From Aureibaculum sp. 2308TA14-22 (GTDB lineage Bacteria; Bacteroidota; Bacteroidia; Flavobacteriales; Flavobacteriaceae), in NCBI RefSeq assembly GCF_040538665.1, contig NZ_JBEWXT010000001.1, positions 2,940,501 through 3,004,500 of the forward strand: 64,000 bases of DNA, in the 5' to 3' direction. The notes below the pieces were generated by a model that had not been told where the DNA came from, did no database searches, and saw only the letters and a program-made list of their open reading frames with translations. Shown here piece after piece: positions 7,047 to 62,554 of this stretch. Every line of letters begins with the position of its first letter. The stretch's first letter is position 1. The translations under genes were made by a program, and so were the position numbers.

Positions 7047-7687
7047 TCTATATTTAATAAGTCCGTAAACTTTTTTAGCTTCTCAACATCTTTTAATCCT
7101 GCTTCTATTTCAAATTTACTATTTACGTCTATTACTTGACAATGTCTGGATGCATCGCTTTTTAAAAATGTTTCTAACTTTTCTATTTCTTCCAAACCAA
7201 TTCCACCACTTAAAAAATACGGTTTTGTAGATGGGTAATCTCTTAAAACACTCCAATTAAAAGTATAACCATTTCCGCCTGGGTTTTTTCCTTTGGTATC
7301 GAACAGAAAATAATCACAAACGGATTCATATGGTTTTAGAATGCTAAAATCAAATTTATCTTTTATGGAGAATACTTTGATGATTTCTAACACAGACCCT
7401 GAAATAAATTCAGGGTGACGCTTGAGAGCCTTGCAAAATTCAGGTGATTCTTCTCCATGTAATTGAACAGCTTGAAGGTTATATCTTTCTATTTTACTAA
7501 TAACCTCATCAATACTAGCATTTACAAAAACCCCTACTTTTTTAATCGTCTTTGCTAAATCAGGTAAAGTACCTTCAAAATTTCGTGGTGATTTATCATA
7601 AAATATAAAGCCCATATAATCAGGTTGCAATGCAGCAACCTCAATTATATTCTCATGATATTTCATCCCACAAATTTTCAACCTCAT
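7043..7687 (-). CDS. trpF: Phosphoribosylanthranilate isomerase carrying an in-frame palindromic insertion
   Basis: A 214-residue TIM barrel that isomerises phosphoribosylanthranilate to the 1-deoxyribulose form. The catalytic Cys lies in LKICGMKY near the N-terminus and the catalytic Asp in YFLFDTKGKNPGGNG. The phosphate loops are PYFLSGGI and VIDVNSKFE. Residues 90-98 (RHPEFISGS) are encoded by a short palindromic repeat (7394-7420) placed between two conserved blocks, LHGEESPEFCKAL and EIIKVFSI. The frame is kept and the rest of the protein is intact, so it is probably functional. The stop overlaps the next gene as ATGA. Confidence 0.95.
   Translation of the reverse strand: MRLKICGMKYHENIIEVAALQPDYMGFIFYDKSPRNFEGTLPDLAKTIKKVGVFVNASIDEVISKIERYNLQAVQLHGEESPEFCKALKRHPEFISGSVLEIIKVFSIKDKFDFSILKPYESVCDYFLFDTKGKNPGGNGYTFNWSVLRDYPSTKPYFLSGGIGLEEIEKLETFLKSDASRHCQVIDVNSKFEIEAGLKDVEKLKKFTDLLNIE
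7394..7420 (-). repeat. Palindromic element inserted in frame in trpF
   Basis: On the plus strand: ACCCTGAA (7396-7403), ATAAA, TTCAGGGT (7409-7416), then GACG, a perfect 8-bp stem with a 5-nt loop. Read on the minus strand it contributes nine codons, RHPEFISGS. It closely matches the element at 7701-7728 in opposite orientation and has the core CTGAA-N5-TTCAG shared with 8023-8047. In-frame peptide-coding palindromes are known in Rickettsia (RPE elements); this one is of a different family. Confidence 0.85.
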
Positions 7688-7697
7688 ATTTTTTCGT

Positions 7698-8006
7698 TTA
7701 CGTAACCCTGAATTTAGTTAAGGGTCGCATTACACTAATTGTTTCCAAATTAGGATTTTTCTCTTTTATCAAATTTACTTTCCAATCGTGATGCCAATTT
7801 TTTAATTGTTTTTCTCTTTTTATCGCTAAGTTAACGTCTGTAAATTCTTCAAAATACACAAAATCCGTTAGATTATATTTTTTCGTGAATTTAGACCCTA
7901 AACCTTCTGCATGATTATTTACACGTTCCATTAAATTAGAAGTTACGCCTATATAAAAAGTGGTTCGGTATTTATTGGTCATTATGTAAATATAACTTAA
8001 TTGCAT
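7698..8006 (-). CDS. Single-domain GIY-YIG endonuclease-like protein
   Basis: A 102-residue protein of the UvrC-N-like GIY-YIG type. The N-terminal strand YIYIMTN and the FYIGVTSNLMERVNNH block supply the motif pair, with the usual Arg/His region. GSKFTKKYNLTDFVYFEEF and KREKQLKNWHHDWKVNLI are typical of the stand-alone family common in Bacteroidota. The last ten residues (MRPLTKFRVT) are encoded by a palindromic repeat. It lies between trpC and trpF and is bracketed by inverted palindromes, so it looks like an insertion into the trp operon that preserved downstream expression. Nuclease activity is inferred from the fold only. Confidence 0.85.
   Translation of the reverse strand: MQLSYIYIMTNKYRTTFYIGVTSNLMERVNNHAEGLGSKFTKKYNLTDFVYFEEFTDVNLAIKREKQLKNWHHDWKVNLIKEKNPNLETISVMRPLTKFRVT
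7701..7728 (+). repeat. Left palindrome flanking the GIY-YIG gene
   Basis: CGTA followed by ACCCTGAA (7705-7712), a 5-nt loop TTTAG, then TTAAGGGT (7718-7725) and CGC. It overlaps the 3' end of the GIY-YIG frame and supplies its last codons. It is inverted with respect to the right flank at 8023-8047, and reads almost as the minus strand of the trpF element. Confidence 0.75.
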
Positions 8007-8022
8007 CGCTCGTTGTTATTTG

Positions 8023-8047
8023 ATGCTGAAACGTGTTCAGCATGACG
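8023..8047 (-). repeat. Right palindrome flanking the GIY-YIG gene
   Basis: ATGCTGAA (8023-8030), loop ACGTG, TTCAGCAT (8036-8043), followed by GACG: a perfect 8-bp stem with a 5-nt loop. The core CTGAA-N5-TTCAG and the adjoining GACG match the trpF element. The outer three stem bases differ but co-vary, so the pairing is preserved. It sits 17 bp upstream of the GIY-YIG start. Confidence 0.75.
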
Positions 8048-8049
8048 TA

Positions 8050-8838
8050 CTATTTCGAATTCAGTTTGTCTATAAATTCCTTTGCACTTTTACCAGCATC
8101 ATCGGTTTTCATAAAATTTTCACCAATTAGAAAACCCTTATAACCATGAGGTTGTAATTCTTTTATAGCTTCGACACTACTAATTCCACTTTCTGAAACT
8201 TTTACAAAATCATTTGGTATTTTGGAGGCTAGTTTTTTACTGTTATCTAAACTTACCTCAAAGGTTTTTAAGTTTCTATTATTTACACCCAACATGTCTA
8301 AACTAGGCATGATAGATTTTTGCAATTCTTCTTCATTATGTACTTCTAGCAAAACTTCTAGTCCAAGGCTCTTAGCAAATTCAGAAAAATGCTTGATTTC
8401 TTTTTGTGATAACACAGCAGCAATCAACAAAACTACATCTGCTCCATAGGCTTTCGCAACTAATAATTGATATTCATCAATAATAAATTCTTTTCGCAAC
8501 AAAGGCAGGTAACAATTGGCTCTGGCTGATAATAAATCGTCTAATGAGCCCCCAAAATACTTAGCATCTGTTAAAACGGACATACCAGATACTCCAGCCT
8601 CTTCATAGCCTCGGGCTACGTCAAAAACATTAAAACCAGTATTTATGATAGATTTTGATGGTGAACGTCTTTTATGTTCAGCAATAATTCCCGTATTACT
8701 CTCTTTTAATCTTTCTGCTAATGAGATCGTTTTACGTTCAAAGAAAACAGACTTTTCCAATTGCGACACTGGCAACACCCCTTTGCGAAGTTGAACTTCT
8801 AAGTATTTATCTGCTATAATTTTTTCTAGTATCGTCAT
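8050..8838 (-). CDS. trpC: Indole-3-glycerol phosphate synthase
   Basis: A 262-residue TIM barrel that closes and decarboxylates the anthranilate ribulose phosphate to indole-3-glycerol phosphate. Typical blocks are IIAEHKRRSPSKSII (catalytic Lys), VLTDAKYFGGSLDDL, LLRKEFIIDEYQ, LEVHNEEEL, GVNNRNLKTFEV and SESGISS. It is not fused to TrpF. Its stop lies just 3 bp after the right GIY-YIG palindrome. The 38-bp gap to trpD holds nothing notable. Confidence 0.97.
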   Translation of the reverse strand: MTILEKIIADKYLEVQLRKGVLPVSQLEKSVFFERKTISLAERLKESNTGIIAEHKRRSPSKSIINTGFNVFDVARGYEEAGVSGMSVLTDAKYFGGSLDDLLSARANCYLPLLRKEFIIDEYQLLVAKAYGADVVLLIAAVLSQKEIKHFSEFAKSLGLEVLLEVHNEEELQKSIMPSLDMLGVNNRNLKTFEVSLDNSKKLASKIPNDFVKVSESGISSVEAIKELQPHGYKGFLIGENFMKTDDAGKSAKEFIDKLNSK

Positions 8839-8876
8839 TTTTTAGTTCTTACTATCTCATTCTACGTAGCCTTTGG

Positions 8877-9872
8877 CTAAATAGAGCTAATTGCTTGTAA
8901 CTTCTTTAAGGTTTTTAATCCCTTACCACTTAAAAGTGACTCTTTTGCTAATTCAAACCCTTCTTTTGGTTGTAAATTTTTAACGGTTGCTATTGCCATT
9001 CCAGCATTGGCAGACACTACATTGTTTTGGGCATCAGTTCCTTTTCCACTGATTACTTCCATGAATATCTTGGCGGATTCTTCAACTGAATTTCCACCAA
9101 ATATTTCTTCTGGTGTAATTGGTTGTACTCCAAAATCATCAGGACTTAACATTGCCTCTGAATGATTGGTTATTGTTTTTGTAGCTCCAGTTAATGAAAT
9201 CTCATCGTAACCATCTAGAGCATGTAAAATTGTAAAATTTTTATCTGTATTTTGATATAAATAACTATACATCCTTGCCAATTCCAAGTTAAAAACACCT
9301 ACAAGTTGATTTTTTGGAAATGCTGGGTTCACCATTGGACCCAACATATTAAAAAAGGTTTTTACACCTAATGCTTTTCGTATGGGTGCTACATTCTTCA
9401 TAGCGGGATGAAATAAAGGAGCATGTAAAACACAAATTCCTGTCTCATCTAAACTCCTTCTTAAAAAATCTTGCTCATTGCTAAATTTTATTCCTAAATA
9501 TTCCATAACATTACTTGAGCCAGAAACTGAAGAAACTCCATAATTACCGTGTTTGGTAACGTTAATTCCTGCACCTGCAGCTACAAAAGATGATAAAGTA
9601 GAAATATTAAATGTGTTTTTACCATCACCACCTGTACCGCATAAATCAATCGTATTATAATCGGAAAAATCAACTGCTAAACACAAATCTAATAATGCGT
9701 CACGAAAACCTTCTAATTCTTCAACAGTAATACTTCGCATCATATATACTGTTAAAAATGCTGCGATTTGACTCGGGTTGTATTCTCCTTTAGAAATGTT
9801 TACCAATACATTTTTAGCCTCTTCTTTTGAAATGGTTTCATGATTGATTAATCTATTTAATAATTGTTTCAT
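8877..9872 (-). CDS. trpD: Anthranilate phosphoribosyltransferase
   Basis: A 331-residue enzyme that transfers phosphoribose from PRPP to anthranilate. The helical N-terminal domain is followed by the PRPP loop CGTGGDGKNTFNISTLSS. Further conserved motifs are KHGNYGVSSVSGSSNVMEYLG, HPAMKNVAPIRKALGVKTFFN and LGPMVNPA. Length is normal. It starts 9 bp after the trpG stop, consistent with a single transcript. Confidence 0.97.
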   Translation of the reverse strand: MKQLLNRLINHETISKEEAKNVLVNISKGEYNPSQIAAFLTVYMMRSITVEELEGFRDALLDLCLAVDFSDYNTIDLCGTGGDGKNTFNISTLSSFVAAGAGINVTKHGNYGVSSVSGSSNVMEYLGIKFSNEQDFLRRSLDETGICVLHAPLFHPAMKNVAPIRKALGVKTFFNMLGPMVNPAFPKNQLVGVFNLELARMYSYLYQNTDKNFTILHALDGYDEISLTGATKTITNHSEAMLSPDDFGVQPITPEEIFGGNSVEESAKIFMEVISGKGTDAQNNVVSANAGMAIATVKNLQPKEGFELAKESLLSGKGLKTLKKLQAISSI

Positions 9873-9881
9873 ATTTCGACA

Positions 9882-10448
9882 TTAAGAATTTAACCAATTT
9901 TCCAATAATTGCTTTCCGTTTGGGGTAAGCACTGATTCAGGGTGATATTGCACTCCTTTTACATCGTACTTTTTATGTCTTAACGACATTATTTGGCCAT
10001 TTTCGTCATAAGAAGTGGCTTCTAACACATCGGGTAAATTAGTATCAACAACCCATGAGTGGTAACGACCCACTTCAAAGTTTTTTTCTAAACCTTTAAA
10101 CATTGGTTCATCATCAACCGTAAGTTCAACATTTGTGGCAACACCATGATAAACCTCTTTTAAATTGATGATTTTACCTCCAAAAACTTCACCAATTGCC
10201 TGCTGTCCTAAACAAACTCCCAAAATACTTTTAGTTGGAGCATATTGTTTGATAATTTCTTTTAATAGCCCTGCTTCATCGGGTATTCCTGGCCCAGGAG
10301 AAAGCACAATCTTATCAAATGCTTCAACTTCACCTAAGGTCAATTGGTCGTTTCGTTTTACGGTAACCTCACAACCTAAATCTTCTAAATAATGTACCAA
10401 ATTATAGGTAAAACTATCGTAGTTATCTATGACTAATATTTTCTTCAT
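9882..10448 (-). CDS. trpG: Anthranilate synthase glutamine amidotransferase component
   Basis: A 188-residue class I glutamine amidotransferase. The catalytic triad is visible: Cys in GVCLGQQAIGE, and His and Glu in GVQYHPESVLTPNG. The N-terminal block ILVIDNYDSFTYNLVHYLEDLG is canonical. It supplies ammonia to TrpE. It starts 2 bp after the trpE stop. It could also serve p-aminobenzoate synthase, as some TrpG proteins do. Confidence 0.96.
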   Translation of the reverse strand: MKKILVIDNYDSFTYNLVHYLEDLGCEVTVKRNDQLTLGEVEAFDKIVLSPGPGIPDEAGLLKEIIKQYAPTKSILGVCLGQQAIGEVFGGKIINLKEVYHGVATNVELTVDDEPMFKGLEKNFEVGRYHSWVVDTNLPDVLEATSYDENGQIMSLRHKKYDVKGVQYHPESVLTPNGKQLLENWLNS

Positions 10449-10450
10449 TC

Positions 10451-11854
10451 CTATACACGTTCAGCCAACTCTATGGCATGGGTTAATGCTCCTAATTTGT
10501 TATATACTTCTTGCAATTCATTTTCTGGGTCTGATTTTGATACTAATCCCGCACCGGCTTGCCAATGTAATTCGTGATTCTTGCTTAAAAAAGTACGAAT
10601 CATAATGGCATGGTTAAAATTACCATCAAAATCCATAAAACCAATAGCACCTCCATAAAAAGCCCTGCTTGTTTTTTCGTATTGTTCAATCAGCTGCATC
10701 GCCCTATGTTTTGGTGCACCGCTTAATGTGCCAGCAGGAAAAGTGTCAGCAACAACTTGCATTGTAGAAGTGTTCTTCTCTTTTTTTCCCGTAACCTTAC
10801 TTACCAAATGAATTACATGAGAAAAGAATTGAACTTCTCTATATGTATCAACTTTCACCTGACTACCGTGACGGCTTAAATCGTTTCTAGCCAAATCCAC
10901 CAACATTACGTGTTCGTCGTTTTCTTTGTCGTCTTGTGATAGTTTTTTTGCCAATATAGCATCTTGTTCATCATTCCCAGAACGTTTAAAAGTCCCTGCT
11001 ATAGGGTGAATTTCTGCTAGCCCATCTTTTACTACCAATTGTGCTTCAGGGGAACTACCAAATATTTTAAAATCACCATAATCAAAATAAAAGAGGTATG
11101 GCGAAGGATTAATACTCCGCAAAGTTCTATAGACATTAAATTCATCTCCTTTAAAAGATTGTTTAAATTTTTTGGACAAAACCAATTGAAATACATCACC
11201 CCTAGCACAATGCTTTTTGGCAATTTCTACATGCTCCTTATATTCATTATCTGTTAAATTAGAACTAATCTCACCATCTTTTGTAAATTTATATGTAGTA
11301 AAATTCTGTGCTTTAACCAATTGATGCAAATCTTCTATATTGCTTTTTTCGTTATAATCATGTGCAAAAATATAGGCATGATTTTTAAAATGGTTTATCG
11401 CGATAATATTCTGATAAACAGCGTAATATATATCAGGAATTACAATAGAATCTTTCTTCTTTGAAATCTCTACATCTTCAAAATACCGAACAGCATCATA
11501 CGCAGTGTAGCCAAAAATTCCGTTATGGATAAATTTAAAACCTTCATCTTTTTGTACATCAAAACGTTGAGAAAATTTATGAATCTCTGTAGGAACATCT
11601 GTTTCATTAGTAATTTCCATTATTTTGCTTGTTCCGTCAGGAAAAGTCTGAAAAATCTTTTCATTTTCAACTTTAATGGTCGCAATTGGATTAAAACAGA
11701 TGTATGAAAAACTGTTGTCATTAGCATGATAATCACTACTTTCGAGCAGAATACTATTGGGAAAACGATCGCGAATTTTTAAATACACGCTCACTGGTGT
11801 AATGGTATCAGCAATTATTTTTTTTGACGATGTGTTTAATTTGAATTTATTCAT
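10451..11854 (-). CDS. trpE: Anthranilate synthase component I
   Basis: A 467-residue chorismate-using enzyme and first enzyme of the pathway. The N-terminal segment SILLESSDYH contains the LLES motif that binds feedback-inhibiting tryptophan. C-terminal chorismate-binding motifs are present: GSSPEAQLVV, HPIAGTFKRSG, ELQEVYNKLGA, LSGAPKHRAMQLIEQ and RAFYGGAIGF. The start ATG is only 3 bp beyond the T run of an intrinsic terminator, so its expression depends on readthrough of the attenuator. Confidence 0.97.
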   Translation of the reverse strand: MNKFKLNTSSKKIIADTITPVSVYLKIRDRFPNSILLESSDYHANDNSFSYICFNPIATIKVENEKIFQTFPDGTSKIMEITNETDVPTEIHKFSQRFDVQKDEGFKFIHNGIFGYTAYDAVRYFEDVEISKKKDSIVIPDIYYAVYQNIIAINHFKNHAYIFAHDYNEKSNIEDLHQLVKAQNFTTYKFTKDGEISSNLTDNEYKEHVEIAKKHCARGDVFQLVLSKKFKQSFKGDEFNVYRTLRSINPSPYLFYFDYGDFKIFGSSPEAQLVVKDGLAEIHPIAGTFKRSGNDEQDAILAKKLSQDDKENDEHVMLVDLARNDLSRHGSQVKVDTYREVQFFSHVIHLVSKVTGKKEKNTSTMQVVADTFPAGTLSGAPKHRAMQLIEQYEKTSRAFYGGAIGFMDFDGNFNHAIMIRTFLSKNHELHWQAGAGLVSKSDPENELQEVYNKLGALTHAIELAERV

Positions 11855-11857
11855 AAT

Positions 11858-11890
11858 AAAAAAAGCTTGTCGTGAATGACAAGCCTTGTT
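11858..11890 (-). terminator. trp attenuator terminator
   Basis: On the minus strand: GGCTTGTC (11885-11878), loop ATTCAC, GACAAGC (11871-11865) and a run of seven T ending at 11858, 3 bp before the trpE start. Seven bases of this hairpin (TTCACGA, plus-strand complement at 11870-11876) are complementary to TCGTGAA in the leader (11926-11920). That stretch carries the leader's last Ser codon and stop, which allows an alternative antiterminator pairing. Confidence 0.9.
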
Positions 11891-11920
11891 ATTTTTAATT
11901 TAAATATACAATGGTTTAGT

Positions 11921-11977
11921 TCACGAATTTGCGTTTCGAGAATTCCACCACCAGGTATTATTTAAAATTGTATTCAT
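11921..11977 (-). CDS. trpL: trp operon leader peptide
   Basis: An 18-codon reading frame, MNTILNNTWWWNSRNANS, with three consecutive TGG codons (11945-11953). It starts about 10 nt after the predicted transcription start and ends at a TGA that lies in the putative antiterminator strand. A ribosome stalled at the Trp codons would leave that strand free, whereas one reaching the stop codon would cover it and let the terminator form. This is the classical attenuation layout. It is too short for ordinary gene finding. Confidence 0.88.
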   Translation of the reverse strand: MNTILNNTWWWNSRNANS

Positions 11978-11993
11978 AATTGATTTGTTATGA

Positions 11994-12026
11994 CAAATGT
12001 AGTAAAATATTTAAACAATCAAAAAA
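11994..12026 (-). promoter_or_regulatory. trp operon promoter
   Basis: On the minus strand: a TTTTTTG -33 element (12026-12020), an 18-nt spacer and TACATTTG (12001-11994). This matches the Bacteroidota housekeeping consensus TTG-N~19-TAnnTTTG. It predicts a start near 11987 and a leader transcript of about 130 nt up to the attenuator. Confidence 0.8.
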
Positions 12027-12029
12027 ATA

Positions 12030-12998: not shown

Positions 12999-13009
12999 AA
13001 CTCTATAAA

Positions 13010-13976: not shown

Positions 13977-14234
13977 CTACTTATAAGTCAATTTAAAATA
14001 AATTAGCAGTAACGATAATGCGGCCGTAATACTATTTGTGACCATCATTGCTAAACTATTTACATAAATACCGTAAATCAGCCATAAAATAATACCTACA
14101 AAAAATACCATAAACATTGTTAAGGAAAGACTATCGGCCGACTTACTTTTATACGTTTTATACACCTGAGGCACAAAAGCAGCGGTAGTCAGCCCACCAG
14201 CTAGTAATCCCAAAATTTCTATGGAAGCCACCAT
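13977..14234 (-). CDS. SemiSWEET family sugar transporter
   Basis: An 85-residue protein with three transmembrane helices (about 5-25, 37-57 and 62-82) and the PQ-loop motif FVPQVYKTYKSKS at the end of helix 1. This is the size and layout of bacterial SemiSWEETs, which work as dimers in passive sugar exchange. Its ATG shares one base with the leuS stop (TAATG), so it is translationally coupled to leuS. The substrate cannot be predicted. Confidence 0.88.
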   Translation of the reverse strand: MVASIEILGLLAGGLTTAAFVPQVYKTYKSKSADSLSLTMFMVFFVGIILWLIYGIYVNSLAMMVTNSITAALSLLLIYFKLTYK

Positions 14235-17200
14235 TAACCTACTATATTTACAATTTTACCGGGCACTATAATTACTTTTTTAGGCGTTCGACCTGCCAAT
14301 TGAGCTTGTGTTTTTTCATGAGTCATTACGGCTTCTTCAATTTGCTCTTTGGTTAAATCTAAAGATAAATCCATAGTAAAACGCATTTTACCATTGAACG
14401 AGATAGGATAGGTCTTTGTGCTTTCCACCAAGTATTTCTCTTCAAATTTAGGGAAAGGAGCGGTTGAAATAGACTCGGTATGACCCAACTTACTCCATAA
14501 TTCTTCTGCAATATGCGGTGCATAAGGCGAAATTAATATCAACAAAGGTTCTAAAATTGCCCTATTGTTGCATTTTTTTGCTGTCAATTCATTTACTGCA
14601 ATCATAAAGGTAGAAACCGAGGTGTTAAAAGAGAAATTCTCAATATCTTCTTCTACTTTTTTGATGGTTTTGTGTAGGGTTTTAAAAGCCTCTGGGGTAG
14701 GTTCAACACCTCCCGAGCCCCCCTCAAGGGGGGAATTAGTCACGTAAAAAGCACCGTTTTCACCGGAATGATACAATTTCCATAATTTTTTAAGAAAACT
14801 GTGTACACCCGTAATACCTGCAGTATTCCAAGGTTTCGCTTGTTCTAATGGGCCTAAAAACATTTCATACATACGTAAACTGTCTGCACCGTATTGCTCA
14901 CAAATAGCATCTGGATTTACGACGTTTAGCCATCTTTTAGACATTTTTTCAACTTCTGAATATGTTTTAAATTCGCTAGAGCCCTGATTAAATAATTCAT
15001 GAAATTTTCCCTTATGCCAATAACCCTTTTGAACCACAAAAATTGAATCTTCATAATACTGATTACTATTTCTATAATTTTCAATATCAAGAACATTACT
15101 TTTTACGTAATTAACATCAAAACGATGTGGAATAATTTCATTAAATGGGACAGCTAAACTTCCTTCCTTATACTCATCTACATACTCATAATCAGCACTG
15201 AAAAAAACATACTTTACATCTTTAGTATAGTGAGAAAAGTGTACCTTTTCTCCAAATTCATTTTCTTGTAACAGAAAAATAGTATTAGACGCTTTTTTAC
15301 CCTCAAAATCATTTGCTCCTTTATAACCAGTAACATATGCCAATTCACTCGTCCCCAATATCATCCCTTGGTTAATCAACTTCTTCGCAAATTCATCTTG
15401 AGGCACTAAACCTTTATCAAACATGAATTTTTGCCAAAAACGGCTGTACAGCAAATGGCCTGTGGCATGCTCGCTACCACCGATGTACAAGTCGACGTCT
15501 TGCCAATAATTAATGGTATCTTGCGAGAAGATTTCATTCTCGTTATGTGGATCCATATAACGGTTAAAATACTGCGAACTGCCCGCCCAACCGGGCATGG
15601 TATTGAGTTCTAAAGGGAATACTGTTTTCTTATCGATTTGACTATTTTCAACTATCTTGTTTTGCTCAATGTCCCAAACCCAAGCCTCGGCATTTCCTAA
15701 TGGTGGTTTACCGTCTTCGGTAGGTAAGTATTTTTCTACTTCAGGTAAAACAATAGGTATGTGTTTTTCATCAATCATTTGCGGCAAACCATTGACATAA
15801 TATACCGGAAAAGGCTCGCCCCAATAGCGTTGACGACTAAAAACCGCATCACGCATTCTATAATTTATCTTTTTATAACCAAATCCACGTTTTTCAATTT
15901 CGTAAATAATGATTTTCATTGCCTTTTTATATGGCAAACCATTCAGGAAATCAGAATTGGCAATCACTGATTTTTCCTTTTCAGCAAAAGCTTCTTCAGA
16001 AATATCAACACCTTCAAAAATATTGGGAATCGGAATATCAAAATGCCTAGCAAAATCGTAATCACGTTGGTCGCCACAAGGGACAGACATAACTGCACCT
16101 GTTCCGTAACCCGCAAGCACATAATCACCAATCCAAATAGGAATAGGCTCTTTTGTAAACGGATGTTCAGCATAAGCCCCAGTAAATGCTCCAGTTATGG
16201 TTTTTACATCTGCCATTCTATCTAATTCACTCCTTTTGGCAGTAGCTTTTATATAGGCTTCAACATCTTCCTTTTGAGCATCAGTTGTTATTTTTGGCAC
16301 CAATTCATGCTCTGGTGCTAAAGTCATAAAAGAGACTCCGAAAATGGTGTCGGGTCTTGTAGTAAATACATCTATCTTAGGAAGGTTTTCTCCATCAATA
16401 ATTGAAAAAGAAACCATAGCCCCTTCACTTCTTCCAATCCAATTGGTTTGGGAATCTTTAAGTGGTTGCGGCCAATCTATCTTATCTAAACCATCCAACA
16501 ATCGCTGAGCGTAAGCGGAAATACGCATGCTCCATTGTTTCATTTTTTTACGCACAACTGGGTGTCCACCACGTTCTGAAACGCCATTTACAATTTCGTC
16601 ATTTGCCAAAACTGTTCCCAATGCAGGACACCAATTTACTTCGGTATCCGACAAGTAGGTCAATCGATATTGCAATAAAATTTGTTGCTGTTTTTCTTTA
16701 GAAAAATCATTCCATTCACTGGCAGTAAACTGTCCAACATCATCATCTGATTCAGCATTAACGGTAGTATTTCCTTCTTTTTCAAAAGTGGAAACTAAGC
16801 TTGAGATATCTTCCGCTTTATCGGTATTTTTGTTATACCATGAGTTGAATAATTGGATGAAGATCCACTGTGTCCATTTATAATAGTTGGGGTCTGAAGT
16901 ACGGACTTCGCGAGACCAATCGAATGAAAAACCAATCTGATCAAGTTGACGTCTGTATGTTTTAATATTTTCAGCAGTTGTTACCGCGGGATGTTGCCCT
17001 GTCTGAATAGCATATTGCTCAGCAGGCAAACCAAAACTATCATACCCTTGTGGATGCATTACGTTAAAGCCTTTGTGCCTTTTATATCGAGCATAAATAT
17101 CAGAAGCAATATAACCTAATGGGTGCCCAACATGTAAACCCGCACCACTTGGGTACGGAAACATATCTAACACATAAAATTTGGGTTTTTCAGCACCTTT

Positions 17201-17287
17201 CTCACCAGGATTTGCAGCCTTAAAAGTTTGATTGTCCGCCCAATATTTTTGCCATTTGGCCTCTATTTCATTAAAATGGTAACTCAT
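14234..17287 (-). CDS. leuS: Leucyl-tRNA synthetase with an in-frame palindromic insertion
   Basis: A 1017-residue class I synthetase. The HIGH-like site is in PYPSGAGLHVGHPLGY, the editing domain includes FTTRPDTIFGVSF, and the KMSKS loop appears as EKMSKRWLN. It is longer than many bacterial LeuRS. Residues 851-861 (NSPLEGGSGGV) are encoded exactly by a 33-bp repeat (14705-14737) of the family that flanks the DUF559 gene at 62 kb. The insertion lies in the linker between FYVT and PEAFKTLHKTIKKVEED of the anticodon-binding region, where it should be tolerated. A TAACTTTG -10-like site is at 17318-17311. Confidence 0.96.
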   Translation of the reverse strand: MSYHFNEIEAKWQKYWADNQTFKAANPGEKGAEKPKFYVLDMFPYPSGAGLHVGHPLGYIASDIYARYKRHKGFNVMHPQGYDSFGLPAEQYAIQTGQHPAVTTAENIKTYRRQLDQIGFSFDWSREVRTSDPNYYKWTQWIFIQLFNSWYNKNTDKAEDISSLVSTFEKEGNTTVNAESDDDVGQFTASEWNDFSKEKQQQILLQYRLTYLSDTEVNWCPALGTVLANDEIVNGVSERGGHPVVRKKMKQWSMRISAYAQRLLDGLDKIDWPQPLKDSQTNWIGRSEGAMVSFSIIDGENLPKIDVFTTRPDTIFGVSFMTLAPEHELVPKITTDAQKEDVEAYIKATAKRSELDRMADVKTITGAFTGAYAEHPFTKEPIPIWIGDYVLAGYGTGAVMSVPCGDQRDYDFARHFDIPIPNIFEGVDISEEAFAEKEKSVIANSDFLNGLPYKKAMKIIIYEIEKRGFGYKKINYRMRDAVFSRQRYWGEPFPVYYVNGLPQMIDEKHIPIVLPEVEKYLPTEDGKPPLGNAEAWVWDIEQNKIVENSQIDKKTVFPLELNTMPGWAGSSQYFNRYMDPHNENEIFSQDTINYWQDVDLYIGGSEHATGHLLYSRFWQKFMFDKGLVPQDEFAKKLINQGMILGTSELAYVTGYKGANDFEGKKASNTIFLLQENEFGEKVHFSHYTKDVKYVFFSADYEYVDEYKEGSLAVPFNEIIPHRFDVNYVKSNVLDIENYRNSNQYYEDSIFVVQKGYWHKGKFHELFNQGSSEFKTYSEVEKMSKRWLNVVNPDAICEQYGADSLRMYEMFLGPLEQAKPWNTAGITGVHSFLKKLWKLYHSGENGAFYVTNSPLEGGSGGVEPTPEAFKTLHKTIKKVEEDIENFSFNTSVSTFMIAVNELTAKKCNNRAILEPLLILISPYAPHIAEELWSKLGHTESISTAPFPKFEEKYLVESTKTYPISFNGKMRFTMDLSLDLTKEQIEEAVMTHEKTQAQLAGRTPKKVIIVPGKIVNIVG
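14705..14737 (-). repeat. Palindromic element in frame within leuS
   Basis: On the minus strand it begins AATTCCCCCCTTGAGGGGGG and ends GGGAGGTGTT. The CCCCCC/GGGGGG stem encloses TTGA. The design (C-run, TTGA, G-run, then a second G block and TGTT) matches the 31-bp inverted repeats at 62104-62134 and 62524-62554. It is exactly 11 codons long, contributes NSPLEGGSGGV, and keeps the leuS frame. Confidence 0.8.
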
Positions 17288-25245: not shown

Positions 25246-25309
25246 AGCAAATTGGGTTGATTGCTTTTAATTGAAACAGCTTGACACACTTCGTTAAGCT
25301 GTTTCTTTC
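25246..25309 (+). terminator. 3' hairpin module after the PepSY-like gene
   Basis: A 37-nt stretch (25246-25282), starting AGCAAATTGGGTTGATTGCT and ending GAAACAGCTT, is identical to 25730-25766. It forms a small hairpin (AGCAA...TTGCT). The left arm of a second one follows: GAAACAGCTT (25273-25282) with AAGCTGTTTC (25296-25305), then TTTCA. Exact conservation in a 3' untranslated region suggests a functional RNA or a very recent duplication. Confidence 0.7.
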
Positions 25310-25704: not shown

Positions 25705-25800
25705 TCAAAAAACACTAAACTAAAAACAGAGCAAATTGGGTTGATTGCTTTTAATTGAAACAGCTTAATATATTACTACACATTAAGCTGTTTCTTTTTC
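25705..25800 (+). ncRNA. Putative small RNA from the orphan cassette
   Basis: Predicted from the copy-3 promoter (start near 25705) to a terminator ending in TTTTT at 25795-25799, about 95 nt with no ORF. It contains the 37-nt block (25730-25766) identical to the PepSY-like gene's 3' end. It ends in a perfect 13-bp stem, GAAACAGCTTAAT (25757-25769) with ATTAAGCTGTTTC (25782-25794). Of the 330-bp gap before gyrB, this fills the first part; 25801-25890 shows nothing else. Existence of the RNA is inferred, not observed. Confidence 0.45.
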
Positions 25801-34591: not shown

Positions 34592-34648
34592 AAAAATCGT
34601 TTTGTGTTCCTGAATCAAATTCAGTAATTACAAAACGATTTTTCTTTT
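34592..34648 (+). terminator. Terminator containing a nested CTGAA palindrome
   Basis: An outer stem AAAAATCGTTTTGT (34592-34605) pairs perfectly with ACAAAACGATTTTT (34630-34643), followed by CTTTTT. The loop carries an inner CTGAA (34610-34614), five bases, TTCAG (34620-34624). This is the same core as the repeats around the GIY-YIG gene. It lies between secDF and hpt-adk, 5 bp before the latter's start. Confidence 0.8.
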
Positions 34649-54403: not shown

Positions 54404-55885
54404 ATGATGAAAAAATATTTTAATAAAATAATAATATTAGTACTATTTGCACTGGTTTCAGTAGGCTGTAGCGATGAGTATTTTGACGTTAATACGCCCT
54501 CAAATACTGCAACCATTGACCAACTACGAATGGGAGATTTATTAGCTCCTGTTATTCATAGTACTATGGAAGGACAACGATCTGCCGAACTGGCATTTGG
54601 TAACTACGTGCAGTATTTCGTTTCTCAAGGTGGAGGTGCTTTAGGGCAAACTGAAGCCAGTGGTCTTTGGTCGCAAGTTTATCTTTATGTTTTGCCAAAT
54701 ACAAAAGCGTTAAGAGAGAAAGCCACCGAATTAAATGCTACACATTATAAAGCCGTTGCAGATATATTAGACGCAATTAACTTGGGTATAGCAACTGATA
54801 CTTGGGATAATATTCCCTACTCAGATGCTACACAGTCACCAGCAAATAATTTCCCTACTTTTGATACGCAAGAGCAAATTTACAGTACTATTTTTGCCTT
54901 GTTAGACGGTGCTATTTCAGCATTATCTGCTGAAGACAATTCAGGTTTTACTCTTGGTAGAGATGATTTAATTTATGGAGGTGATATGGAAAAATGGCTC
55001 AGAGCTGCCTATACCATTAAAGCCCGTTATCAATTGCATTTGGTTAATAAAGGTACGGTTTCTCCTAATGAGGTTTTAACTACTATTGCTAACGGATTTG
55101 AATCTAATGCTGATAATTTCTTAATGTTCTATGATGATAAAAATATCAATCCTTGGTATTCAGGTGAAATTTTAGCAAGAAATACTGGAAATTTCCATCG
55201 CGATATTGCCAGTCAATTGGTAAGCTCTATGAATGGAGATTATTTTCCGTTCCAAAGTGGATTAGAAGTTGACCCAAGATTACCTCGTTTTGCTGAAAAA
55301 CCTGACGGAGAAGATTGGAAAGGGTTTGTTAGTGGTGCTGCTGGATTGGCACCAGATGGTTCTGATGCAAACACTGGATTTGCTGTTGATGGCTATTATA
55401 CTAGTATAGATTCCCCATTAATGTTAATCAGTTATGCAGAAGCTATGTTTATCAAAGCAGAAGCTGCTTTTTGGGCAAATGGTGGAAATACAACAAGTAT
55501 TGGTAGTAACGCCGATACTTACATGGCATATATGGCAGGTGTTCAAGCCAGTATGGATATGTATGGTGTAGACGGATCAGCTTATACCGCTGACGGTGCT
55601 ATTGATGTTGGTGAAGCCAATTTAATGCTTCAGCATATTATGAAAGAAAAGTATATTCATAACTTCTTAAATCCTGAAACTTTTGTTGACCAAAGAAGGT
55701 ACGATTTTTCTGATGACGTGTTTAAGGGACTAACTATTAGAGAGGAAGAAGAAGCAGATGATAATGAGTTCTTTGGGCAATGGTTCAGAAGAGCTATATA
55801 CCCGTCATCTGAATTAAATAGGAACGAAGCCAATGTTCTTGCAAACCAACAAACTCCTGTAACCCCAGTTTGGTGGGACCAATAA
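54404..55885 (+). CDS. SusD/RagB-like nutrient-binding lipoprotein
   Basis: A 493-residue lipoprotein with signal and lipobox (ALVSVGC) and the SusD-type start SDEYFDVNTPSNTA. The helical scaffold contains ADILDAINLGIATDTWDNIPYSDA in two blocks, LISYAEAMFIKAEAAF and the C-terminal FRRAIYPSSELNRNEANV. It forms the lid over the SusC barrel. It lies 9 bp after susC. Its integrity contrasts with the frameshift in its partner. Confidence 0.93.
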   Translation: MMKKYFNKIIILVLFALVSVGCSDEYFDVNTPSNTATIDQLRMGDLLAPVIHSTMEGQRSAELAFGNYVQYFVSQGGGALGQTEASGLWSQVYLYVLPNTKALREKATELNATHYKAVADILDAINLGIATDTWDNIPYSDATQSPANNFPTFDTQEQIYSTIFALLDGAISALSAEDNSGFTLGRDDLIYGGDMEKWLRAAYTIKARYQLHLVNKGTVSPNEVLTTIANGFESNADNFLMFYDDKNINPWYSGEILARNTGNFHRDIASQLVSSMNGDYFPFQSGLEVDPRLPRFAEKPDGEDWKGFVSGAAGLAPDGSDANTGFAVDGYYTSIDSPLMLISYAEAMFIKAEAAFWANGGNTTSIGSNADTYMAYMAGVQASMDMYGVDGSAYTADGAIDVGEANLMLQHIMKEKYIHNFLNPETFVDQRRYDFSDDVFKGLTIREEEEADDNEFFGQWFRRAIYPSSELNRNEANVLANQQTPVTPVWWDQ

Positions 55886-55952: not shown

Positions 55953-55984
55953 TTTTAAAAGTTTATTTGATATCTCCTATCTAT

Positions 55985-57220: not shown

Positions 57221-57238
57221 AAAAAAAATTTAAGTAAA

Positions 57239-57643: not shown

Positions 57644-57647
57644 TTGT

Positions 57648-58673: not shown

Positions 58674-59686
58674 TAACGGGTCAGTTTAACTCCAGTACCG
58701 TTCAAATCACTATACGTAATTACGCCGTTTTCAATCACCACACCATCGGCAGTATCGTTTGTAATTAATATAGCTCCGTCCATATCAACATAATCTAACA
58801 AGGGTAATAAGTGAGCAATAGCAGAGATTCCCACAGATGATTCTGTCATACAACCCACCATAGTTGACATGCCTAATTTTCTAGCTTTTTCTAACATCCG
58901 TTTGCCAGAAGTCAATCCTCCGCACTTGGTCAATTTAACATTTACTCCATGAAAGTGATTGTGGCATTTCATAACGTCAGCTTCTACCATGCAACTTTCA
59001 TCGGCTACAATGGGTAAAACCGATTTTAAAAATAAAGTTTTATGTCCGCCCCAATCCCCTGCTTTTAATGGTTGCTCAATAAATTCAACACCTAACTTTT
59101 TTAATTCAATAGCATTTTTTAAGGTTTCGTCAACGGACCATCCACAATTAGCATCTACTCTAAAAACAGCATCAGTATGTTTTCTTAATTCTTTGATTAT
59201 AGCAATATCATCTTCCGTTCCCAATTTTATTTTATACAACGGCCAGAGTTTTTCTTTTAATTTAGACACCATTTTTTCTATGGTATCAATACCTATAGTA
59301 TAATCAGTTATTGGATTATTGCTAATATCAAGTCCCCAATATTCATATAGTTTCATTCCTTTTTTTCGTGCATACAAATCGTTATACGCTAAGTCTAATG
59401 CACATAATGCGAACATGTTTTCTCTTAACTCTTGATACATAACTTGCCAAAAAGCTGCAGGTTCTAACTCTTTGTTTGCATTAATTAATGGTTCTAAAGC
59501 TTTTAAATCGGACGACATTTTTTCAATAGTAGCTCCGTAATAAGGATTAGCGGTAGCCTCACCATAACCTGAGAACTGCCCATCTTTTAGCTCAACGACT
59601 AAACTTTCTTGCACATCTCTAGCTTCTCTAGAAATTCGAAAAGTATGTTCCAGTTTTAATTCGTAAGGTCTTAATATCAGTTGCAT
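58673..59686 (-). CDS. L-Ala-D/L-Glu (dipeptide) epimerase, enolase superfamily
   Basis: The start is MQLILRPYELKLEHTFRIS at 59686; the upstream extension is rejected. It is a 337-residue muconate-lactonising-type enzyme. The catalytic lysine pair is in LYKIKLGTEDD (KxK), the metal ligands in VDANCGWS, FIEQPL and VADESC, and the second lysine in NVKLTKCGG. The family epimerises L-Ala-D-Glu from peptidoglycan turnover to L-Ala-L-Glu. With the NamZ-like gene nearby this suggests muropeptide recycling; specificity is inferred. Confidence 0.87.
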   Translation of the reverse strand: MQLILRPYELKLEHTFRISREARDVQESLVVELKDGQFSGYGEATANPYYGATIEKMSSDLKALEPLINANKELEPAAFWQVMYQELRENMFALCALDLAYNDLYARKKGMKLYEYWGLDISNNPITDYTIGIDTIEKMVSKLKEKLWPLYKIKLGTEDDIAIIKELRKHTDAVFRVDANCGWSVDETLKNAIELKKLGVEFIEQPLKAGDWGGHKTLFLKSVLPIVADESCMVEADVMKCHNHFHGVNVKLTKCGGLTSGKRMLEKARKLGMSTMVGCMTESSVGISAIAHLLPLLDYVDMDGAILITNDTADGVVIENGVITYSDLNGTGVKLTR

Positions 59687-59782
59687 AAAATCAATTTTAT
59701 CAAAGAATAAATTTACTAAAAATAATATCAAGTTCTTGGTATTTATTGTACTTTAGAAATCGAATTTTTAAAATCATAATAA

Positions 59783-60373
59783 ATGCCATTAGTTACTCCT
59801 TTATCATCAGAACACGATATAGAAACCAAAAAATTAGCTGAATTTTTTAATGAAACTTTAGGTTTTTGTCCTAATTCAGTTTTAACAATGCAACGCCGAC
59901 CAGCAATTAGCAAAGCTTTTATCAATTTAAATAAAGCAGTAATGGCAAATGAAGGTAGAGTAACCTCCGCCTTAAAACGAATGATTGCCTGGGTAAGTAG
60001 CAACGCTACAGGTTGTCGTTATTGCCAAGCTCATGCCATTAGAGCTGCTGAACGTTACGGAGCGGAACAGAAACAATTAGATAATATTTGGGAGTACAGA
60101 ACGCATTCTGCATTCAATGAAGCCGAACGTGCTGCTCTTGATTTTTCATTGGCTGCAAGCCAAGTGCCGAATGCTGTTGATGAGGAAATCAAAAAAAGAT
60201 TATATGAGCATTGGGACGAAGGCGAAATTGTAGAAATGCTAGGCGTTATTTCTCTTTTTGGATACCTAAACAGATGGAATGACTCCATGGGCACCACAGT
60301 AGAAGAAGGAGCTATTGAAAGTGGCAACCAATATTTAGGAAAACACGGATGGGAAAAAGGAAAACACATTTAA
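59783..60373 (+). CDS. Carboxymuconolactone decarboxylase (AhpD-like) family protein
   Basis: A 196-residue all-helical protein. The CxxC-x3-H motif in GCRYCQAHAIRAAE is that of AhpD-like peroxidase partners. SAFNEAERAALDFSLAAS and EIVEMLGVISLFGYLNRWNDSM are typical of the peroxidase-related branch. It probably acts in thiol redox defence and not as a decarboxylase. It lies 18 bp before recJ and may share its transcript. Confidence 0.9.
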   Translation: MPLVTPLSSEHDIETKKLAEFFNETLGFCPNSVLTMQRRPAISKAFINLNKAVMANEGRVTSALKRMIAWVSSNATGCRYCQAHAIRAAERYGAEQKQLDNIWEYRTHSAFNEAERAALDFSLAASQVPNAVDEEIKKRLYEHWDEGEIVEMLGVISLFGYLNRWNDSMGTTVEEGAIESGNQYLGKHGWEKGKHI

Positions 60374-60391
60374 TTAGATAAAGTAAGTTAT

Positions 60392-62089
60392 ATGCGTTGG
60401 ACGTTTAAACCAGTACCGCCTTCAGAAAAAGTGAGTCAATTAGCAAAAGAGTTGTCTCTTGATAATCATTTGACTACGCTTTTAGTGCAACGCGATATTG
60501 AAACTTTTGACGAGGCTAAGACTTTTTTTAGACCTAATTTATCAGAATTGCATGATCCTTTTCTTATGCAAGACATGCAAAAAGCGGTAAATCGAATTAA
60601 AACCGCCATTGCTAACAACGAAAACATTTTAATTTTTGGAGATTATGATGTTGATGGCACAACTGCGGTTTCATTAGTTTCTTCTTACATAAAAAGTTAT
60701 TACCCAAATGTTGCTACGTATATTCCCGATAGATATGCCGAAGGTTATGGTATTTCTTTTCAAGGAATTGACTTTGCCGACGACAATGATTTTTCTTTAA
60801 TCATTGCGTTAGATTGTGGTATAAAAGCCATTGAAAAAGTGGATTACGCCACTAAAAAAGGCATAGATTTTATTATTTGTGATCATCACAGACCAGGTGC
60901 AACCCTTCCAAAAGCAGTTGCCATTCTCGACCCAAAAAGAGAAGATTGTAATTATCCTTATAATGAATTGTGTGGTTGCGGAGTTGGTTTTAAATTGGTT
61001 CAGGCATTGGCTTCCAAACGAAATCAGACTATTGAAGATTTAAAGCCCTATTTAGATTTAGTGGCAACTGCTATTGCCGCAGATATTGTGCCCATGACTG
61101 GGGAAAACAGAACACTTGCTTATTTTGGTTTAGAGCAGATAAATACAAATCCGAGAAATGGTATAAAAGCCATAATTCATCATATAAAAAAAGAAATTCT
61201 AACTATAACAGATGTTGTTTTTATTATTGCTCCGCGTATCAATGCAGCAGGAAGAATGAAACATGGTAATTATGCCGTTGAATTACTTTGCGAAGAAGAT
61301 TTTGACAATGCAAAAAACATGGCTGCTGGAATTGAAGTTTTTAATACCAATCGGCGTGATTTAGATAAATTAACAACTATTGAGGCTTTGCAACAAATAG
61401 AAGAAAATAAGGAAACTCAACATTTTTCATCTGTTGTCTATCAAGAAGATTGGCATAAAGGCGTTATCGGTATTGTGGCATCTCGTTTAACGGAAACCTA
61501 TTACCGACCTACACTCGTCTTTACAAAAAGTGGCCATAAATTAGCAGCTTCTGCCCGCTCTGTAAGTGGGTTTGATGTTTATAATGCCTTAGAAGCTTGC
61601 TCAGAATATATTGAACAATTTGGTGGACATAAATACGCAGCGGGGCTTACCCTTTTGGAAAAAAATTATCAGAATTTTAAAGACAAATTTGAAGAAGTGG
61701 TTAAGGATAGTATTTCTAAAGAATTATTAGAGCCCGAAATAAAAATTGATTTAGAGCTAGAATTAGCTGACATTACACCTAAATTTTACAGGATTTTACA
61801 GCAATTCTCCCCTTTTGGTCCACAAAACATGAAACCTGTTTTTGTAAGTAAAAATGTAAAAGACACAGGCTATTCCAAAAAAGTTGGTGCAGACGGAGAT
61901 CACTTAAAATTGAGTATTATTTCGGAAGAGGGTATAAAATTGAACGGCATAGGTTTTAATCTGGGTAATAGGTATAAAGAAATTTCTAACGGTAAACCTT
62001 TTGACCTTGTCTATACTATTGATGAAAATACGTGGAATGGAAATACTTCGCTACAACTAAATGTTAGGGATATAAAAATAGTCGAATAA
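60392..62089 (+). CDS. recJ: Single-stranded-DNA-specific exonuclease RecJ
   Basis: A 565-residue DHH/DHHA1 5'-3' exonuclease. Metal sites are ILIFGDYDVDGTTAVSLV, IALDCGIKA and FIICDHHRPG. The DHHA1 part has GRMKHGNYAVELL and WHKGVIGIVASRLTETY, then SARSVSGFDVYNAL and FGGHKYAAGLTL. The C-terminal OB domain is complete. It acts in recombination and mismatch repair. A DUF559 element is inserted just after its stop. Confidence 0.96.
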   Translation: MRWTFKPVPPSEKVSQLAKELSLDNHLTTLLVQRDIETFDEAKTFFRPNLSELHDPFLMQDMQKAVNRIKTAIANNENILIFGDYDVDGTTAVSLVSSYIKSYYPNVATYIPDRYAEGYGISFQGIDFADDNDFSLIIALDCGIKAIEKVDYATKKGIDFIICDHHRPGATLPKAVAILDPKREDCNYPYNELCGCGVGFKLVQALASKRNQTIEDLKPYLDLVATAIAADIVPMTGENRTLAYFGLEQINTNPRNGIKAIIHHIKKEILTITDVVFIIAPRINAAGRMKHGNYAVELLCEEDFDNAKNMAAGIEVFNTNRRDLDKLTTIEALQQIEENKETQHFSSVVYQEDWHKGVIGIVASRLTETYYRPTLVFTKSGHKLAASARSVSGFDVYNALEACSEYIEQFGGHKYAAGLTLLEKNYQNFKDKFEEVVKDSISKELLEPEIKIDLELELADITPKFYRILQQFSPFGPQNMKPVFVSKNVKDTGYSKKVGADGDHLKLSIISEEGIKLNGIGFNLGNRYKEISNGKPFDLVYTIDENTWNGNTSLQLNVRDIKIVE

Positions 62090-62103
62090 ATATTTTCGGA
62101 GTA

Positions 62104-62134
62104 ATTGTCCCCTTGAGGGGACCTTAGGGGTGTT
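62104..62134 (+). repeat. Left 31-bp inverted repeat of the DUF559 element
   Basis: It begins ATTGTCCCCTTGAGGGGAC and ends CTTAGGGGTGTT. GTCCCC and GGGGAC (62107-62122) form an internal hairpin around TTGA. It equals the reverse complement of 62524-62554 at 30 of 31 positions and shares its design with the repeat inside leuS. Confidence 0.9.
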
Positions 62135-62144
62135 AAACATAAAT

Positions 62145-62510
62145 ATGCGAAACAAAATAATTCCATACAACCCAGAATTAAAAATATTAGCTCGTCAACT
62201 AAGAAAGAATAGTACTTTGCCAGAAGTATTATTATGGCAAAAAATAAAGAAAAAATCTCTAGGAGTTCAATTTCATAGACAAGTACCAATGCTCAATTAC
62301 ATTGTTGATTTTTACTGTCATGAGATTGGCTTAGTAATAGAAATTGATGGTAAAAGTCATGATTTTAACTTTTTGAACGATGCAGACAGACAAGGTAAAA
62401 TTGAAGCCTATGGAGTTCAATTTTTGAGATTTTCTAATGATGACATATTGAATAATATGTTTAGTGTGTCGTTGATTCTTGAAAAGAAAGTTAATGAATT
62501 ATTAGAATAA
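62145..62510 (+). CDS. DUF559 (Vsr-like PD-(D/E)xK) endonuclease domain protein
   Basis: The start is ATG at 62145 (MRNKIIPYNPELKILARQLR), as in family members; a GTG at 62130 lies in the repeat and is less likely. The 121-residue domain shows LPEVLLWQKIKKKSLGVQFHRQ, then IVDFYCHEIGLVIEIDGKSH with Asp55, Glu66 and Asp68 of the nuclease core, and GVQFLRFSNDDIL. It is a stand-alone nuclease domain and no methyltransferase is nearby. It is bracketed by nearly perfect 31-bp inverted repeats, so it appears to be the only gene of a small element. Confidence 0.88.
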   Translation: MRNKIIPYNPELKILARQLRKNSTLPEVLLWQKIKKKSLGVQFHRQVPMLNYIVDFYCHEIGLVIEIDGKSHDFNFLNDADRQGKIEAYGVQFLRFSNDDILNNMFSVSLILEKKVNELLE

Positions 62511-62523
62511 AACAACCATTAAA

Positions 62524-62554
62524 AACACCCCTAAAGTCCCCTCAAGGGGACAAT
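62524..62554 (-). repeat. Right 31-bp inverted repeat of the DUF559 element
   Basis: On the minus strand it begins ATTGTCCCCTTGAGGGGAC and ends TTTAGGGGTGTT, with one difference from the left copy. It starts 14 bp after the DUF559 stop. Flanking bases outside the repeats do not show an obvious target duplication. Confidence 0.9.

Follow-up and report, generated by a model that had tools for sequence, protein, structure and literature searches.

The window analyzed here is a 64,000-nucleotide stretch of the Aureibaculum sp. 2308TA14-22 genome (contig NZ_JBEWXT010000001.1, positions 2,940,501 to 3,004,500), and it contains two small nuclease genes of different folds, each lying between inverted hairpins, together with solo copies of both hairpin types in frame within ordinary genes (Table 1). 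One nuclease belongs to the GIY-YIG family, and its gene sits between trpC and trpF; the other has a DUF559 domain, and its true start is probably the ATG at 62145. An earlier reading of the letters of the window (the sequence-only reading) had suggested that the two loci might be instances of one general nuclease-palindrome system.

Table 1. Features of the two nuclease loci and of the solo hairpins in the window (window coordinates)
Feature	Position	Strand	Basis or remark
Small GIY-YIG nuclease gene (102 amino acids), clade A	7698..8006	-	PF01541, E 1.2e-16
GIY-YIG element left end: decayed tagged hairpin CGTA+ACCCTGAATTTAGTTAAGGGT	7701..7725	+	Sequence; 2-mismatch match at 7702-7722
GIY-YIG element right end: hairpin ATGCTGAAACGTGTTCAGCAT, outward GACG (CGTC) tag	8023..8047	-	Motif search and sequence
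Solo CGTC-tagged hairpin in frame in trpF	7396..7420	-	Peptide RHPEFISGS
trpF, host of solo hairpin	7043..7687	-	PF00697, E 2.3e-33
DUF559 (Vsr-like PD-(D/E)XK) nuclease gene	62130..62510	+	PF04480, E 1.5e-27
DUF559 element left end: hairpin GTCCCCTTGAGGGGAC, then CTTAGGGGTGT	62107..62133	+	Sequence and motif search
DUF559 element right end: ACACCCCTAAA, then hairpin GTCCCCTCAAGGGGAC (inverted copy)	62525..62551	-	Sequence and motif search
Solo C-run/TTGA/G-run hairpin in frame in leuS	14704..14734	-	Peptide NSPLEGGSGGVEP
leuS, host of solo C-run hairpin	14234..17287	-	Other hotspot (CP1 domain) empty in this genome

The palindrome CTGAA-N5-TTCAG is present four times in the window against 0.09 expected. 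The claim that the GIY-YIG gene lies between two inverted copies of it stands for the right end, whose hairpin folds well (DNA z-score -3.48), and has to be revised for the left: the trpF copy was considered as that end and rejected, and the true end is a decayed hairpin that overlaps the 3' end of the nuclease gene. The trpF hairpin is a separate, independent solo insertion, in frame as had been proposed, and its HPEFISGS is unique to the TrpF of the window among 23 TrpF loci giving that region, several of the others having different inserts there. The two remaining copies, at 34610 in the secDF terminator and at 54930 in a SusD-like gene, have 5-base pair (bp) stems and no tag and were taken as chance matches, so that the core within the terminator (34610-34624), earlier counted as a family member, drops out. 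Over the whole genome the palindrome occurs 29 times, compared with three for a reversed control. The CGTC tag was found on 18 of the 27 copies examined, the other nine being short-stemmed and untagged; six tagged copies form three head-to-head pairs spaced 40-51 bp apart (L326, L329, and L331). No inverted repeat longer than 7 bases flanks the tagged copies of this genome.

At the DUF559 locus, the gene does lie between two inverted C-run palindromes, and the solo copy in leuS is indeed in frame. Allowing one mismatch, three matches to CCCCTTGAGGGG were found in the window where 0.06 would be expected: one within leuS (14720) and one to each side of the nuclease gene (62109 and 62538). The extra motif CTTAGGGGTGT / ACACCCCTAAA lies inward of the hairpins, which corrects the earlier description, and folding of the left-end hairpin is not clearly above that of shuffles (z -1.07). 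An insert like the leuS hairpin is present at the same site in five of the 19 LeuS loci read and absent from the other 14.

Small GIY-YIG matches, sought with two small GIY-YIG proteins, were found in 134 of 199 genomes. From the more than 150 matches listed there, the 71 best-scoring loci were taken (the locus in the window, 30 returned by the search, and 40 fetched from the rest, with a few skipped) and divided by best match into clade A (window-like, 23 genes) and clade B (48 genes). Of these 71 genes, 67 have a palindrome of one of four classes within 350 bp. CTGAA-N5-TTCAG, with at most one mismatch and within the same distance, accompanies 22 of 23 clade-A genes but only one of 48 from clade B, whose palindromes are built around TCGAGCGNAGTCGA (B1, 22 loci), CTGAGCGCAGTCGAAG (B2, 11 loci), or TTCGAGTG...TATCGAGAA (B3, 12 loci), three loci being unlabelled; the exceptional clade-A locus, L113, has an ATTCC...GGAAT palindrome. 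Placed on the GIY-YIG tree, the five palindrome labels require eight changes, compared with 39.2 in shuffles, although this tree, like that for DUF559, rests on few columns and many of its forks are poorly supported. Pairing is thus clade-specific for GIY-YIG, in line with the general claim of the sequence-only reading that a nuclease has its own palindrome family. In several genomes, that of the window among them, both clades are present and each lies next to the palindrome of its clade, and the class therefore follows the nuclease and not the genome. Distal controls matter here because the classes were set after looking at flanks: at 750-1100 bp from the gene any GIY-YIG class appears in nine of 71 flanks, and a motif-free comparison of the left flank with the inverted right flank gave high scores at 40 of 70 loci near the gene and at one of 69 distally.

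Two larger GIY-YIG frames of the same genome as the window, one of 602 amino acids that we take to be UvrC and one of 453, were set aside from the pairing analysis, and the CTGAA palindrome is absent at two others, L009 and L010. The first of these genes lies between two direct copies (23 nucleotides) of TGAGCTAAGGAGGAAT..., one of them beside a TCCCGATAGCTATCGGGA palindrome (L009:1416-1804), and may represent an additional nuclease clade with a repeat of its own; the second has three tandem 29-bp repeats (TTATTAGCCCACAGACTAATATT...) at its upstream end (L010:1875-1966). A clade-B element at L005:1101-1869 (about 2432171-2432939 of G000:C1) directly follows an acyltransferase-like gene, and a 98-bp copy (90% identical) of the 3' end of that gene stands on the far side of the element, as if insertion had duplicated or carried the gene tail.

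The layout is not confined to close relatives. Scanning GTDB genomes for proteins like those of clade A yielded at least 563 confirmed relatives, of which the best 80 were analyzed; they include 30 from Bacteroidota, and the first, L137, is apparently from the genome of the query L113. A hairpin with GTC at its edge lies within 300 bp of 78 of these 80 genes, and on both sides of 66, under a loose test accepting GTC anywhere within a 7-base window; in the distal flanks, such tagged hairpins were found at seven of 68 loci and hairpins of any kind at 17 of 68. The tag points outward at 63 loci upstream and 69 downstream, and inward at 31 and 22, respectively. The commonest layout, judged by eye, is gtcATTCC..GGAATcca - gene - tggATTCC..GGAATgac. 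The best 80 loci span 21 named phyla, and tagged loci occur in 20 of these, the exception being Spirochaetota, whose single locus is untagged.

DUF559 genes keep similar company. The genome of the window has five, all with C-run palindromes nearby (at L012 on one side only), and with 29 loci returned by search and 20 fetched from the rest they make a set of 54. Of the 54, 47 have a C-run palindrome within 300 bp (25 of them on both sides), including 26 of the 28 stand-alone genes, whereas none of 52 distal flanks has one. Excluding the seven loci without a palindrome, protein and hairpin similarity are correlated over 47 loci (Mantel r 0.279, p 0.0005), and clade-specific pairing thus holds for DUF559 also, more weakly than for GIY-YIG. 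Of 38 DUF559 records in a plasmid collection, 12 were read, from cyanobacteria, alpha- and gammaproteobacteria, and Deinococcus; all 12 have a C-run palindrome within 300 bp (L221 marginally), and C-run palindromes were also present in four of the 12 distal flanks (L218, L220, L225, and L226). A viral origin of DUF559 was considered, but one scan of viral contigs with the DUF559 protein of the window gave just two loci. In two Deinococcus plasmids, L224 and L225, a DUF559 element with similar long C-rich inverted ends occupies two places in one hpa cluster, and that in L225 is located inside a longer host palindrome. Together with the secDF copy, this locus had suggested a preference for the loops of existing hairpins, an idea dropped because the secDF copy fell away and the inverted repeats around the tagged copies of this genome are no longer than 7 bases. 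The record of Escherichia coli KE47 (L228) has a DUF559 gene, presumably ycjD, with a C-run palindrome and then TTAGGGTGAGGG 237 bp downstream.

Across the 199 genomes, CTGAA-N5-TTCAG was counted 4068 times and its control 426 times. The comparisons that follow ignore kinship among the genomes, and some clade-B genes are probably counted among the weaker clade-A profile matches (E up to 1e-15). Genomes with a clade-A match (98) have a median CTGAA excess of 6.46 per Mb, and those without one (101) a median of 2.61; with only the 41 strong matches counted as positive, the medians are 9.00 and 3.13. A match was found in 40 of 48 high-copy genomes and in four of 26 low-copy genomes. Strong DUF559 matches occur in 64 of the 199 genomes and any match in 89. 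The CCCTCTT-N2-6-AAGAGGG hairpin was found in 27 genomes, 16 of them with a strong DUF559 match, compared with 48 of the other 172; with at least two copies the figures become nine of ten and 55 of 189, many copies lying directly beside a DUF559 gene. Both nuclease-repeat correlations are thus positive across genomes, and this census, as far as it went, together with the pairing above, partly supports the idea of a general nuclease-palindrome system. Two details brought forward for that idea were wrong: the trpF hairpin does not form an end of the element, and the core in the secDF terminator does not count for the family.

The nuclease active sites are intact. In the GIY-YIG set, which includes the gene in the window, stop-free cores number 147 of 151, and the residues that we take to be catalytic are near-invariant: Y7, Y18, and R28 in 150 of 151 each, G20 in 149 of 150, and E65 in all 151. 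The presumed catalytic residues of the DUF559 domains are conserved to the same degree (D60 and D73 in 54 of 54, E71 in 53 of 54), so mutated active sites, which had been named as a finding that would undermine the sequence-only reading, are not the rule. The median ratio of nonsynonymous to synonymous substitution rates (dN/dS) is 0.09 in 132 GIY-YIG pairs and 0.10 in nine DUF559 pairs, the latter mostly in-gene copies, and no pair reaches 1; both nucleases are under purifying selection. AlphaFold models are confident, with a mean predicted local distance difference test score of 87.6 for the GIY-YIG and 85.6 for the DUF559 protein. Matches to the DUF559 model include 3hrl (E 2.7e-6) and I-Bth0305I, a homing endonuclease (E 3.9e-4); the GIY-YIG model has a match to UPF0213 (E 9.7e-4) and weak ones to Slx1 (0.013) and UvrC (0.059). 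On these models and alignments, both proteins are predicted to combine a homing-type fold with a conserved active site.

Many DUF559 matches lie inside frames of about 350-1250 residues, where the domain is inserted into LeuS (CP1 domain), RecG, or MetH (between the two B12 domains in L042) or fused to HemD. In the DUF559 tree, from which two of the 54 loci were dropped for lack of the motif, the copies from HemD, RecG, and MetH fall into one group apiece (support 99, 94, and 99, respectively), and LeuS requires three changes for 12 rows. Empty, filled, and scarred sites can all be seen. At the RecG site, 27 of 30 loci were read in related genomes, and 18 are plain, five enlarged by a few residues, and four filled; the LeuS CP1 site is empty, filled, or occupied by a solo hairpin in different relatives. 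In one genome (G005, locus L301), two CGTC hairpins, of the CTGAA and ATTCC types, stand in frame in the CP1 loop that DUF559 occupies in other genomes. The trpC-trpF spacer, which contains the GIY-YIG element in the window, is five nucleotides in 10 of the 22 relatives giving one; by eye, four genomes have C-run hairpins at the junction and one has an ATTCC pair. Since both LeuS and the trpC-trpF junction are occupied by either family, these places recur as insertion sites of both repeat types. No short target-site duplication was seen by eye at the trpC-trpF junction, and the transposase searches covered Y1 only. In G205, the same junction has one hairpin tagged on both sides; its left half matches the upstream end of the element at 12 of 12 bases (the other end at nine of 12), and its right half matches the downstream end (7701-7725) at 11 of 12 (the other end at 10 of 12), as a chimera of the two ends would.

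We consider it probable, by a modest measure, that both loci hold small mobile elements built to a common design, in which a gene for a hydrolytic endonuclease lies between inverted hairpins and the nuclease drives the spread of the hairpins. What the data show is the anatomy, the clade-specific pairing, the purifying selection, the co-occurrence of nuclease and hairpin copy number, and the empty, filled, and scarred alleles at the same sites. Each nuclease lineage would act on its own hairpin family, the GIY-YIG hairpins having a short GTC tag that usually faces outward. The nuclease would bind and cut its tagged hairpin when this is extruded, on a single-stranded lagging strand or as a cruciform, and repair of the break from another copy through the short homology of the hairpin could then spread a hairpin, a pair, or the whole element. 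Solo hairpins and close head-to-head pairs, some in frame in genes, would be non-autonomous derivatives of the ends, and deletion between the two end hairpins may give single chimeric hairpins like that of G205. Insertions in frame in surface loops or at gene junctions would survive because they are harmless. Some DUF559 lineages are apparently faithful to one site each (LeuS, RecG, MetH, and HemD), and would be nearer to classical homing.

Several points weigh against this explanation. Its support comes from pairing and from the gain and loss of units, and it is from these that we infer hairpin cutting and transposition. Co-inheritance of ends and gene could yield clade matching without any recognition, and part of the same flanks had been viewed before the palindrome classes and the C-run rule were set. 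Some CTGAA hairpins are present, at the lower median excess given above, in genomes without a clade-A match, and eight of the 48 high-copy genomes have no such match; likewise, 11 of the 27 genomes with the CCCTCTT hairpin have no strong DUF559 match. The apparent chimera in G205 rests on few bases and is explained equally well by slippage between two hairpins. To our knowledge, there is no case of strand joining by either enzyme fold, and the joining step must therefore come from the host.

Site fidelity of the DUF559 copies in LeuS, RecG, MetH, and HemD points toward homing. The strongest alternative is classical homing: the nuclease would cut the uninterrupted allele of its own host site, the gene would be copied by allelic gene conversion, and the hairpins would be terminators or simply tolerable ends. 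We think it unlikely; in its favor, the in-gene copies form the site-specific lineages described above and the DUF559 fold matches I-Bth0305I. No intein Hint or other splicing domain was found by Pfam in the insert of the one RecG, one MetH, and one HemD scanned, where only DUF559/MTES_1575 appears. The LeuS comparison cuts both ways: differences at fourfold sites, albeit near saturation, are lower in the insert than in LeuS itself in 73 of 105 pairs, yet the protein identity of the insert exceeds that of the host in only one of 105. A fixed host site with empty and filled alleles is seen for in-gene DUF559 in LeuS and RecG; GIY-YIG and stand-alone DUF559 genes occur at many unrelated loci and yet have the same kind of ends. 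Homing also leaves aside the hairpins found without an adjoining nuclease at many places, and the hairpins of the other nuclease family at the LeuS site of L301.

Domestication had been raised as a possibility with the original description, with the nucleases cutting extruded repeat hairpins to protect replication and the cell keeping both. In its favor, dN/dS is low, the GIY-YIG model is weakly like Slx1, a branched-DNA nuclease, and the Caulobacter DUF559 protein VsrA has been linked to the SOS response (PMC12907096). This reading is nevertheless less favored than a mobile element, and we regard it as improbable: the nucleases are patchily distributed (strong DUF559 matches in 64, any in 89, and clade-A matches in 98 of the 199 genomes), they lie between their own hairpins and are inserted in frame in unrelated genes, and the hairpins are more numerous, not fewer, where the nuclease is present.

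A further alternative, slightly more improbable again in our judgment, is that a different enzyme, such as a Y1 transposase of the RAYT (repetitive extragenic palindrome [REP]-associated tyrosine transposase) kind, moves the hairpins and carries the nuclease gene along as cargo. GTAG-type REPs are tied to RAYTs (PMC3733652), and a Y1_Tnp match was found in 16 of 29 genomes searched (that of the window and 28 with at least 40 CTGAA palindromes). However, the other 13, the genome of the window included, have no Y1_Tnp (PF01797) match; a CTGAA hairpin lies within 350 bp of only one of the 25 Y1 loci with full flanks (30 were returned), compared with 22 of 23 clade-A loci; and the active site of the nuclease is under strong purifying selection. 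That the hairpins are only transcription terminators, or RNA hairpins regulating the nuclease gene, is hardly credible, for although their flanking position and folding potential (as at the GIY-YIG right end) would suit such a role, the DUF559 left end folds not clearly better than shuffles, and the same hairpins stand alone inside coding genes, have conserved tags, and match the clade rather than the locus.

One further repeat in the window belongs to neither locus. Two near-identical segments (GCAAATTGGGTTGATTGCTTTTAATTGAAACAGCTT...AAGCTGTTTC) at 25247-25305 and 25731-25794, 484 bp apart and between listed open reading frames, each terminate in a hairpin whose arms, 13 bases long, are 92% and 100% complementary, respectively; they are possibly small RNAs or another repeat family.

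If the mobile-element explanation is right, it has a bearing on a large superfamily of palindromes. The CGTC REPs have been described as having a CGTC or TGTC tag, an 8-9 bp stem starting with AT, a loop of 4-5, and a CCA tail; they have been reported to show no association with transposase genes and apparently to have no transposase of their own, and some are equated with dRS3 of Neisseria and with RPE-6/RPE-4 of Rickettsia conorii (Di Nocera 2013, PMC3733652). The GIY-YIG hairpins share the tag (18/27 copies in the genome of the window and 78/80 of the best cross-phylum loci), a stem of about 8 bp, a 5-base loop, paired copies, and copies in genes. Most tagged copies in the genome of the window have a stem of eight and a loop of five, many begin with AT, many cross-phylum copies end in TCCA, and the three head-to-head pairs correspond to CGTC dimers, but CTGAA copies often begin with AC or AA and end in CTCA. 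None of the DUF559 C-run hairpins read has a CGTC tag, other motifs (CTTAGGGGTGT; CCTCCCC) standing in its place, and they are consequently treated as a separate repeat class. We offer, tentatively and with a little less than even confidence, the broader proposal that nuclease-only mobile elements exist in at least 20 phyla, in which a tiny GIY-YIG or Vsr-like hydrolase would cut tagged hairpins and so spread them through copying by host repair, and that GIY-YIG nucleases are the missing driver of the orphan CGTC REPs (among them dRS3 and Rickettsia RPE-4/6). For a superfamily whose describers found no dedicated enzyme (PMC3733652), a lineage-matched candidate of 100 residues can now be named, and the question can be tested directly. 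That an unrelated fold follows the same plan suggests that a cutting enzyme and a hairpin may suffice for a transposase-free bacterial mobile element. Palindrome peptides and entire nuclease domains would also gain entry in this way to conserved proteins, LeuS and RecG among them, and the in-frame copies would, if this is true, naturally supply new peptide and domain insertions.

REP families, the RAYT system, and both nuclease folds were already known; the link between them appears to be new. Nothing tying GIY-YIG or DUF559 genes to palindromic repeats was found among titles and the starts of abstracts in open-licence PMC, prior work elsewhere being possible, and the word nuclease is absent from the main text of a 2025 survey of REP sequences (PMC12306157). 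VsrA shares the DUF559 Pfam domain and the PD-(D/E)XK superfamily but is proposed to be a mismatch-repair nuclease, and "palindrom" does not occur in the main text of that report (PMC12907096). A ShiLan-type HNH insertion likewise keeps its host frame open with no recognized splicing element, but its host is a phage methylase, its nuclease is in another frame, and its abstract mentions no palindromic ends (PMC11855218). Homing endonuclease genes have in common with our elements the nuclease folds, the empty and filled alleles, and, for in-gene DUF559, a mostly faithful attachment to one site; they differ from them in that here there are hairpin ends, many unrelated sites per lineage, translation in frame, and no intein domain in the cases scanned. 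In CGTC REPs described without a dedicated transposase, the repeats themselves are alike, and here GIY-YIG genes lie between such hairpins, on both sides in 66 of the best 80. A further parallel is the REPtron, made up of REPs and a RAYT, with its enzyme gene between inverted tagged hairpins, its matched lineages of enzyme and repeat, and its solo and paired derivatives; there, however, the enzyme is a Y1 HUH transposase, which has no match in the genome of the window, and its place between the hairpins is here taken by a GIY-YIG or PD-(D/E)XK hydrolase.

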